Origin: Acetobacterium malicum subsp. dehalogenans DSM 11527
GTDB lineage: Bacteria; Bacillota; Clostridia; Eubacteriales; Eubacteriaceae
NCBI RefSeq assembly: GCF_000472665.1
Contig: NZ_AXAC01000027.1
Location: 209 to 53,032, forward strand
Direction: 5' to 3'
Length of the DNA: 52,824 nt
The notes beneath the pieces were generated by a model. The model saw only the letters and a program-made list of their open reading frames with translations. It searched no databases and had not been told where the DNA came from. Positions within the stretch are counted from its first letter, which is position 1. The number at the start of each line of letters is the position of its first letter. Made by a program: the position numbers and the translations under genes. Shown here in pieces: positions 8,395 to 8,699 of this stretch.

Positions 8395-8430
8395 AAGCCC
8401 ATAGAAAACAATGCAATACGGATTTGACGA

Positions 8431-8482
8431 AGACAATGTGGTCTCAGCTCCTTACAATTGGGTAAGCGCTGAGACCTTTTTT
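8431..8482 (+). promoter_or_regulatory. ANTAR-like hairpin overlapping terminator A in the nif leader
   Basis: AGAC (8431-8434) and GTCT (8441-8444) close a six-base loop AATGTG, with A at loop position 1 and G at position 4. The 3' arm GTCT is also part of the 5' arm of a strong intrinsic terminator: GGTCTCAGC (8440-8448) pairs with GCTGAGACC (8468-8476), extended by CTTAC/GTAAG inside and followed by six T. The two structures exclude each other. That is how ANTAR proteins prevent termination. An upstream partner hairpin is not obvious here. Confidence 0.65.
8440..8482 (+). terminator. Leader terminator A of the nif operon
   Basis: A nine-pair outer stem GGTCTCAGC/GCTGAGACC with an inner CTTAC/GTAAG stem is followed by TTTTTT. 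It lies about 40 bases after the predicted transcription start and over 200 bases before nifH, so it acts as an attenuator. Confidence 0.85.
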
Positions 8483-8506
8483 GTTCCCTCACATCCTACC
8501 CTATTT

Positions 8507-8520
8507 AGACAAAGAGGTCT
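8507..8520 (+). promoter_or_regulatory. ANTAR-like hairpin P1 in the nif leader
   Basis: AGAC (8507-8510) and GTCT (8517-8520) enclose the hexaloop AAAGAG (A1, G4). Stem sequence and loop rule match the other two hairpins of this leader. Confidence 0.65.
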
Positions 8521-8588
8521 TAATTTGCTGCTCAATCAAGGCGGCCGGTTAAGATCTTTTCGTTTATGCAAAACAAAATAAGTTTTTT

Positions 8589-8646
8589 AGACAAGGAAGT
8601 CTTACCTTTTACACTGTTGTGAAAGGCCAAGACTTCTTTACTTTTT
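8589..8646 (+). promoter_or_regulatory. ANTAR-like hairpin P2 overlapping terminator B in the nif leader
   Basis: AGAC (8589-8592) and GTCT (8599-8602) enclose the hexaloop AAGGAA (A1, G4). GAAGTCTT (8596-8603), which contains the 3' arm of this hairpin, is also the first arm of terminator B. It pairs with AAGACTTC (8629-8636), followed by TTTACTTTTT. Holding P2 closed would free the polymerase to reach nifH. Confidence 0.7.
8596..8646 (+). terminator. Leader terminator B of the nif operon
   Basis: GAAGTCTT (8596-8603) pairs with AAGACTTC (8629-8636). An inner CCTTT/AAAGG (8605-8609 with 8622-8626) extends the stem, and a T-rich tail follows. It lies 50 bases upstream of nifH and would block the operon when formed. 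Confidence 0.75.
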
Positions 8647-8699
8647 GCCGAAAAACTTGCATTGGATCTTAAAATTTTTCACACTCAGGAGGAACGATT

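Follow-up and report, generated by a model that had tools for sequence, protein, structure and literature searches.

Serial single-hairpin modules in the nif leader of Acetobacterium suggest ANTAR-type antitermination control of nitrogenase expression

We analysed a 52,824 nt stretch of DNA from Acetobacterium malicum subsp. dehalogenans DSM 11527 (assembly GCF_000472665.1, contig NZ_AXAC01000027.1, positions 209 to 53,032), hereafter called the window. The 4.05-Mb source genome belongs to the genus Acetobacterium, and the NifH protein encoded in the window shares 98% identity with A. wieringae NifH, 93% with the A. paludosum protein and 91% with that of A. tundrae. The nifH gene is the first of a presumed nitrogenase operon (Table 1), whose PII-family and nitrogenase component 1 assignments are backed by matches to PF00543 and PF00148. 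The nifE gene scores above the cut-off of TIGR01283, and nifK lies just under that of TIGR01286 (424.1 versus a cut-off of 427.3). Positions 14798-17512 encode a 904-aa fusion of nitrogenase component 1-type, radical SAM and FeMo-cofactor domains (PF00148, PF04055, PF02579) that resembles a NifN-NifB fusion. The stretch directly 5′ of the nif promoter holds an AnfO-family gene (PF09582, 6512-7165) and, at 7178-8128, an ORF of 316 aa whose C-terminus is rich in Cys (CGDCSSCSSCG) and for which Pfam gives no match above cut-off.

A leader of about 300 nt (8401-8699) lies between nifH and a sigma-70-like promoter, from which transcription would start near position 8401. Promoter-like sites number seven in the 1.4-kb region, compared to 2.1 in shuffled sequences. 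The dyad that adjoins the -35 element, in the form TG[AT]AAAGGGTTTACA, is present in 14 of 15 nif leaders of the genus and lies farther upstream in the 15th. A second dyad, TGAAA-N4-TTTCA at 8220-8233, shows the same distribution (14 of 15 leaders, farther upstream in the 15th). Given these conserved dyads, initiation at the nif promoter may also be regulated, and the originally predicted control after initiation, rather than at the promoter, may be only part of the picture. The 5′ end of the predicted transcript is itself a conserved block (Table 1), the GGAT(T) portion of which (8420-8423) can, by eye, pair with (A)ATCC just before the second hairpin described below (8493-8496). This pairing spans 8 bp in genomes G018 and G001 and 4 bp in the window, and is absent in G003, G011 and G012.

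The leader carries three hairpins with AGAC/GTCT stems and the loops AATGTG, AAAGAG and AAGGAA, exactly as originally predicted. All three loops have A at position 1 and G at position 4, and all three are closed by a C:G pair. Only two of the hairpins had been thought to share an arm with a terminator, but folding of the leader reveals three terminators, each of which uses the GTCT arm of one hairpin. These terminators (T1, T2 and T3) each fold better than 200 of 200 shuffled sequences. The hairpins, in contrast, have little stability of their own (-2.2 to -2.3 kcal/mol), and 11, 35 and 24 of 200 shuffles fold equally well. Because the hairpins contribute roughly -2 kcal/mol against -16 to -20 kcal/mol for the terminators, they would need some stabiliser to win. 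AGAC-N6-GTCT sites occur nowhere else in the 52.8-kb window, and dinucleotide shuffles of the window yield a mean of 0.35 such sites, with three reached in one of 100 shuffles. A simple terminator scan returned no sites and so missed all three terminators. A comparison with Rfam gave no family at gathering threshold anywhere in the window; at E values up to 5, two matches appear in 8201-8760, both far under their gathering scores.

Table 1. Features of the nif and amtB regions of the window and, in the last row, hairpins on stretch L003 of the same genome. Functions of hairpins, terminators and promoter are predicted.
Feature	Position	Strand	Detail
Possible transcription-factor site, dyad TGAAAA-GGG-TTTACA	8340-8354	+	just 5′ of -35; conserved in genus
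Sigma-70-like promoter, TTGACT-17-GATAAT	8366-8394	+	10/12 matches; conserved in genus alignment
27-nt conserved block at transcript 5′ end, CCCATAGAAAACAATGCAATACGGATT	8398-8424	+	genus alignment; loose form in 14/15
HP1, putative antiterminator hairpin AGAC-AATGTG-GTCT	8431-8444	+	
T1 terminator, 5′ arm is GTCT arm of HP1	about 8440-8482	+	-18.1 kcal/mol
HP2, putative antiterminator hairpin AGAC-AAAGAG-GTCT	8507-8520	+	
T2 terminator, GTCT arm shared with HP2	about 8515-8565	+	-19.5 kcal/mol
HP3, putative antiterminator hairpin AGAC-AAGGAA-GTCT	8589-8602	+	
T3 terminator, GTCT arm shared with HP3	about 8597-8646	+	-15.6 kcal/mol
nifH, first gene of presumed operon	8700-9521	+	TIGR01287 above cut-off
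Presumed operon 3′ of nifH	to 17512	+	two PII-family genes, component 1 gene in nifD place, nifK, nifE, fused cofactor gene
PII gene, second pair	22366-22704	-	PF00543
Second amtB, 76% identical to first	22836-24089	-	PF00909
Hairpin CTTATC-AAAGGG-GATAAG, second amtB-glnK leader	24202-24219	-	no terminator by criterion used
Terminator overlapping TATC-AAAGGC-GATA hairpin	about 24268-24304	-	-15.8 kcal/mol
Hairpin TATC-AAAGGC-GATA, second amtB-glnK leader	24295-24308	-	
glnK-like PII gene, first pair	24579-24917	-	PF00543
amtB, first pair	24989-26242	-	PF00909
Terminator overlapping TTATC-AAAGGC-GATAA hairpin	26444-26478	-	-15.6 kcal/mol
Second hairpin TTATC-AAAGGC-GATAA, first amtB-glnK leader	26468-26483	-	
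Terminator overlapping TTATC-AAAGGT-GATAA hairpin	26509-26546	-	-22.0 kcal/mol
Hairpin TTATC-AAAGGT-GATAA, first amtB-glnK leader	26536-26551	-	
eut dual hairpins	L003, near 7036, 6868 and 13295	-	second stem AAGC/GCTT; P1 in 3/3

NifH is encoded in 18 of 19 Acetobacterium genomes at the threshold used, and 15 of the loci are orthologous with a readable leader; L020, whose contig starts inside nifH, was left out of the leader alignment. Every one of the 15 leaders contains hairpin-terminator modules (three in 14 leaders and five in G003, for a total of 47). A terminator overlaps the hairpin in 46 of the 47 by a criterion that includes the U-run, which the third module of G001 fails. Modules were collected with a regular expression that demanded GAC, purines at loop positions 1 and 2, and GTC, so conservation at these positions is partly by construction; the expression recovered every module visible in the genus alignment. 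Position 4, which the pattern left free, is G in 40 of the 41 distinct sequences found among 46 modules. Position 2 is A in 40 of the 41, position 3 is variable, and the closing C:G pair, though built into the pattern, is present in all 41. The predicted loop rule holds at G4, whereas A1 does not appear to be strict (A in 33 distinct modules, G in eight). Conservation among the distinct modules of the genus is poor in the stretch from 5 to 16 nt ahead of the loop, where no base exceeds 0.75 bits.

Hairpins with a stem of at least 3 bp, a closing C:G pair and the loop RRNGNN number 48 in the 15 leaders (the 46 modules plus two others) compared to 1.1 in mononucleotide shuffles, and six altered loop rules give only 1 to 10. 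In an alignment of 28 modules, the terminators show 17 base pairs, 11 of which have changed on both sides, and 90.1% of terminator cells are paired versus 28.5-45.6% when one arm is slid. The 4-bp AGAC/GTCT hairpin is 99.1% paired and nearly invariant, which amounts to conservation without covariation within the genus. The main argument for an alternative hairpin within the nif leaders is that AGAC is kept even though it lies outside the terminator. The first of the five serial modules in the G003 leader (L018) has the loop AACAGG, which lacks G4, and may be decayed.

The same loop rule recurs on different stems upstream of both amtB-PII gene pairs of the window (Table 1). Across the genus, 29 amtB loci gave 28 leaders; L303, which begins at a contig start and has a 321 nt leader in which no hairpin was seen, was dropped. 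These 28 leaders contain 53 RRNGNN hairpins with a closing C:G pair, versus 1.9 in dinucleotide shuffles, and 39 modules with an overlapping terminator, versus 0.47 in shuffles. Most of the modules have the stem TTATC/GATAA. At least one module is present in 24 of the 28 leaders and four have none, while six altered loop rules yield between zero and three hairpins over the entire set. The glnA leaders of the genus carry a third version, GAAC-AANGGN-GTTY, in 16 of 19 cases; in 14 of these 16 it is accompanied by a terminator at least as stable as -14.8 kcal/mol. The two hairpins that lack a strong terminator are those of G012 (-3.3 kcal/mol only) and G011 (none by the criterion used). The remaining three leaders have no site in the available stretch (G001 and G006) or are cut by a contig end (G008). 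By eye, the glnA terminator takes the GAAC arm and not the GTTC arm.

The stem is swapped wholesale between operons (AGAC/GTCT, TTATC/GATAA, GAAC/GTTC), and the closing C:G pair, A2 and G4 are constant. Such a pattern is consistent with a protein that contacts the loop and the upper part of the stem, a mode of recognition known from EutV and NasR (PMC8934654, PMC7496416). The covariation expected of the AGAC/GTCT stem is thus missing within the nif leaders of the genus, where that stem hardly varies, and is found instead as compensatory changes at other operons and in other genera.

A genome-wide scan for loop-rule hairpins with 3-bp stems revealed no enrichment over a reversed control (82 versus 118; 57 versus 73). 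Reading 58 of the 139 genome-wide hairpin matches for terminators yielded the glnA site, an intergenic terminator (L171/L172) and sites in coding sequence; a site in plsX (L005; gene named by eye) was rejected as lying inside coding sequence. On the minus strand of L009 (1460-1520), AGAC-AAAGCA-GTCT lies inside a terminator about 280 nt 5′ of an amino-acid permease gene (PF13520). This site, a weak match to R1, an RNA model of the nif module (17.1 bits, E 0.31), is a possible further member of the regulon.

Known ANTAR targets, in the passages of PMC3369931 and PMC8164766 that we draw on, are pairs of hairpins (P1 and P2) joined by a linker. In the sense of this known motif, the originally predicted 'double' switch is not supported: no P1 is evident near the nif modules. 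When the 40 nt upstream of each module were searched for a hexaloop hairpin with a stem of at least 3 bp, none of 40 distinct stretches had a loop of the form A..G.., and one of 40 had [AG]..G.., compared to 2.2 in shuffles. The identical search found P1 in all three eut leaders of the same genome. P1-like hairpins are likewise absent from the 40 nt 5′ of the glnA hairpin in all 16 leaders, and the P1 candidates found for four of 39 amtB modules have no common pattern. In other genera, 17 modules from 13 nif leaders gave three candidates, which are convincing only in Clostridium paridis and Pectinatus frisingensis. We rejected a P1 made from the conserved 5′ block, CAATACGGATTTG, as its pairing is not kept in G003, G011 and G012. 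Since P1 is absent, we do not file the nif leader under the dual-hairpin family, yet hold that it would work alike.

The eut leaders provide a useful comparison within one genome. Like the nif leader, they have hexaloops (in eut, R-A-C-G-N-N), a hairpin (in eut, the second) that overlaps a terminator-like stem, and an ANTAR protein, in their case encoded in the same cluster. Unlike the nif leader, they are dual hairpins with P1 and a second stem of AAGC/GCTT. By eye, G opens four of the six eut loops, which suggests that the ANTAR targets of this genome are not tied strictly to A1. For the same reason, no site emerged when the eut cluster was scanned for dual hairpins under the strict A..G.. 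rule, and the three were found on relaxing the rule and reading the intergenic stretches by eye.

A search of the source genome for ANTAR-domain proteins, whose absence would speak against such a switch, found two. EutV adjoins its kinase in an ethanolamine-type cluster (L003; cluster named by eye). The second protein, which we call NitR following PMC4676874, is encoded directly downstream of glnA, where the search had been directed, with an annotated start 12 nt after that gene (L004). Its ANTAR domain (PF03861) scores 53.7 bits against a cut-off of 27.3, whereas its receiver domain barely passes (31.3 versus 30.2). An ANTAR protein is present in 19 of 19 genus genomes, a glnA start was found upstream in all 19 NitR regions, and the phospho-acceptor site is Asn, not Asp, in all 19 proteins. 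AmiR-like ANTAR proteins with pseudo-receiver domains are controlled by a ligand-sensing partner (AmiC in the case of AmiR). The NitR receiver cannot be phosphorylated conventionally and so probably depends on a partner protein, for which the order of the genes makes glutamine synthetase our guess.

Just one ANTAR protein was found in 11 of the 19 genomes, eight of which also have an aligned nif leader; NitR is the sole ANTAR protein found in these eight, of which seven are at least 99% complete and G011 is 85% complete. In alignment with EutV (numbering of PMC8934654), NitR keeps residues matching E160, K149 and M172, has His at Y164, and is without residues matching R142 and K143. Outside the genus, 24 of 30 ANTAR loci read adjoin glnA, and 22 of those 24 encode proteins without the Asp.

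Relatives of the module are distributed well beyond Acetobacterium. From 74 nif loci outside the genus, L102, L118 and L136 were dropped for having little upstream DNA, and the other 71 were scanned with R1. At E values up to 1, R1 matched 14 of the 71, and seven loci had two matches on the coding strand. Relatives recognized by eye or by R1 lie in the nif leaders of Clostridium beijerinckii, C. chromiireducens, C. puniceum, C. vincentii, C. paridis and Clostridium sp. LS, and in those of Ruminiclostridium papyrosolvens, Youngiibacter, Mobilitalea, Mobilisporobacter, Propionispira and Pectinatus. In an uncultured Clostridia genome (L071), a module with the sequence AGAC-GAAGAA-GTCT (R1 match at 1379-1434) occupies a non-coding stretch 567-622 nt before nifH. 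By eye, a look-alike at about 1790-1845 is closer to nifH and consists of GAC-AAAGGG-GTC and a GC-rich inverted repeat. The scan for hairpins with terminators at nif also caught other stem types (L069, L075, L088, L097, L104, L113, L122 and L140), which were set aside by eye; L088 comes from an ANTAR-less genome.

ANTAR proteins were checked in 50 of the nif-bearing genomes outside the genus and are present in 40. R1 matched 14 of the 40 ANTAR-bearing genomes versus none of the 10 ANTAR-less ones (Fisher p 0.025, uncorrected for kinship), and 26 of the 40 have no R1 match. Propionispira and Pectinatus carry a EutV-like protein that has the Asp and is encoded beside a kinase, rather than a NitR-like protein, so the ANTAR protein differs there.

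Across the source genome, R1 finds only the three nif modules, one of which is matched again on the opposite strand. Elsewhere in the genus, modules also reside 5′ of genes for a corrinoid protein and an MttB-family methyltransferase in G012, G015, G016 and G017; the G016 module was judged from place and score. MttB proteins at E values up to 1e-200 are encoded in only those four genomes of the genus and not in the source genome. The MttB-linked module occurs twice, about 6-7 kb apart (L278 3280-3336 and 9103-9156; L280; L281; L285), and probably also in G011, where an R1 module lies near a contig end. Ten stretches with R1 matches outside nif were read, one of which, L279, turned out to hold a nif-type leader truncated at its contig end. 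Weaker matches in G008, G009, G010 (C181) and G014 (C7), and further ones in G003, G011 and G012, were left out of this reading. Four matches (L282, L283, L284 and L286) were excluded, since none forms a paired hairpin that obeys the loop rule. L287 (AGAT-AAAGAA-ATCT) was excluded as well: it fits the loop rule but has a U:A closure and no gene close downstream.

Loop G4 and the closing pair, both kept in relatives, the covarying terminators and the ANTAR proteins of the genome, one of them beside glnA, all favour the predicted ANTAR-type leader at nif. We think it likely, judging from sequence, that the leader comprises three serial ANTAR-type antitermination switches built on single hairpins, and that NitR is the most probable regulator, acting also on amtB-glnK and glnA-nitR. 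In this mechanism, a polymerase starting near 8401 would meet HP1/T1, HP2/T2 and HP3/T3 in turn. When no active regulator is present, the terminator of each module would take the GTCT arm and transcription would stop. An active regulator, presumably under nitrogen limitation, would bind the RANG loop together with the C:G pair that closes it, stabilise the weak 4-bp hairpin and thereby deny the GTCT arm to the terminator. Since all three modules must be passed, read-through would be roughly the product of three probabilities, and three to five serial modules would give low leak when off and a steep response when on. NitR, the most likely regulator, should also act at the leaders of the two amtB-glnK pairs and at that of glnA-nitR, which includes its own gene. 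We infer binding itself, the identity of the binding protein, the signal and the direction of control.

Several observations count against this explanation, including the nearly invariant nif stem, the lack of R142 and K143 matches in NitR and the 26 of 40 ANTAR-bearing genomes without an R1 match. Further such observations are the EutV-like proteins of Propionispira and Pectinatus, the other stem types caught at nif (one in an ANTAR-less genome), the lack of genome-wide enrichment, the four amtB leaders without a module and the glnA hairpins of G011 and G012 without a strong terminator. Also, the dual form that EutV needs for antitermination is absent (PMC3369931, PMC8934654), and the affinity of NasR for one hairpin alone is about 12-fold lower than for two (PMC7496416). 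The modules might be dual hairpins at a distance, with HP1 recruiting for HP2 and HP2 for HP3, which would still be ANTAR control. Tandem repeats in 15 of 15 genus nif leaders and in many amtB leaders agree with this arrangement, but we find it rather unlikely. The gap between HP1 and HP2 is 62 nt with a terminator in between, and lengthening the linker by 20 nt abolished antitermination by EutV (PMC8934654). Moreover, glnA leaders show a single hairpin that has no P1-like partner, and no partner lies 5′ of HP1. In SPR, EutV bound P1 or P2 in isolation with an affinity close to that for the two together (PMC8934654), so a lone hairpin can serve as ligand, and the closing C:G pair of our modules is a stated feature of ANTAR targets (PMC7496416).

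The single hairpins could be bound by EutV or by a non-ANTAR RNA-binding protein, with NitR acting only elsewhere. EutV is also encoded in the genome, NitR is without two EutV contact residues, and the nif modules of Propionispira and Pectinatus accompany EutV-like proteins beside a kinase. This assignment is nonetheless improbable, as NitR is the only ANTAR protein found in eight leader-bearing genomes, the eut leaders differ from the nif leader in layout and stem, and the loop and closing pair match the ANTAR rule. We regard as very improbable that the terminators are constitutive attenuators or RNA-processing sites, with AGAC kept for some other role and control residing at the promoter dyads. 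The dyads and the 5′ block are indeed conserved in the genus, but so is AGAC outside the terminator; the loop rule recurs with other stems before amtB and glnA, and three strong, unrelieved terminators would presumably silence nif. A long structured leader with terminators could also suggest a riboswitch or other known cis-acting RNA, an explanation that the Rfam results leave with almost no credit.

To our knowledge, the control of nif in Gram-positive anaerobes lacking NifA is not yet well understood. The leader offers a concrete candidate answer for acetogens and for several species of Clostridium, namely that nitrogenase would be gated after initiation by up to five serial terminators, each with its antiterminator hairpin. 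If single hairpins suffice, the accepted dual-hairpin rule for ANTAR targets is too narrow, and sites of this type will have escaped searches that demand a pair. Being short, in tandem and available as natural variants, the modules are suited to testing how repetition sets the steepness of a switch. A broader proposal, which we put forward only tentatively and consider doubtful as a whole, is that in Acetobacterium and many Clostridia one glnA-linked pseudo-receiver ANTAR protein runs nif, amtB/PII, glnA and some MttB operons through serial single hairpins. Repetition would replace the P1-P2 pair and set the gain, and feedback-inhibited glutamine synthetase would hold NitR inactive.

ANTAR control of nif is already known as a kind, since nitrogenase operons of Pelobacter carbinolicus and nitrogenase subunits elsewhere were predicted ANTAR targets in 2012 (PMC3369931). 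Repetition within a transcription unit is not new either, given the 13 RNA sites in six transcription units of Desulfotomaculum acetoxidans (PMC3369931). Our searches of the open-access literature returned no description of this leader and, by title or abstract, no paper on such control in Acetobacterium or Clostridium; some of these leaders may nevertheless be among those tabulated in the supplement to PMC3369931. The EutV, NasR and AmiR targets described in the portions of PMC3369931 considered here share with the nif leader a hexaloop with G4 and, in most modules, A1, a hairpin overlapping an intrinsic terminator, and nitrogen genes downstream. In contrast, those targets are P1-P2 pairs with a linker, on which the 2012 seed and search were defined, whereas the nif leader has tandem single hairpins in which position 1 may be G. 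NasR (PMC7496416) and NasT (PMC12316311), which function in nitrate assimilation, likewise exert ANTAR control of nitrogen genes after initiation, but with their own sensor domains or partners, on other operons and through dual-hairpin RNAs. The nitR gene of Clostridium acetobutylicum, to whose product our NitR is presumably orthologous, encodes an antiterminator of ammonia assimilation, and an ANTAR response-regulator gene is named in C. thermocellum (PMC4676874). The likeness lies in an antiterminator protein for ammonia assimilation; the passage on nitR in that source mentions neither nif, amtB nor tandem single-hairpin modules. Relative to these systems, what appears to be new is the tandem single-hairpin form, the link to a glnA-linked pseudo-receiver protein, and a loop rule common to nif, amtB and glnA in one genus.
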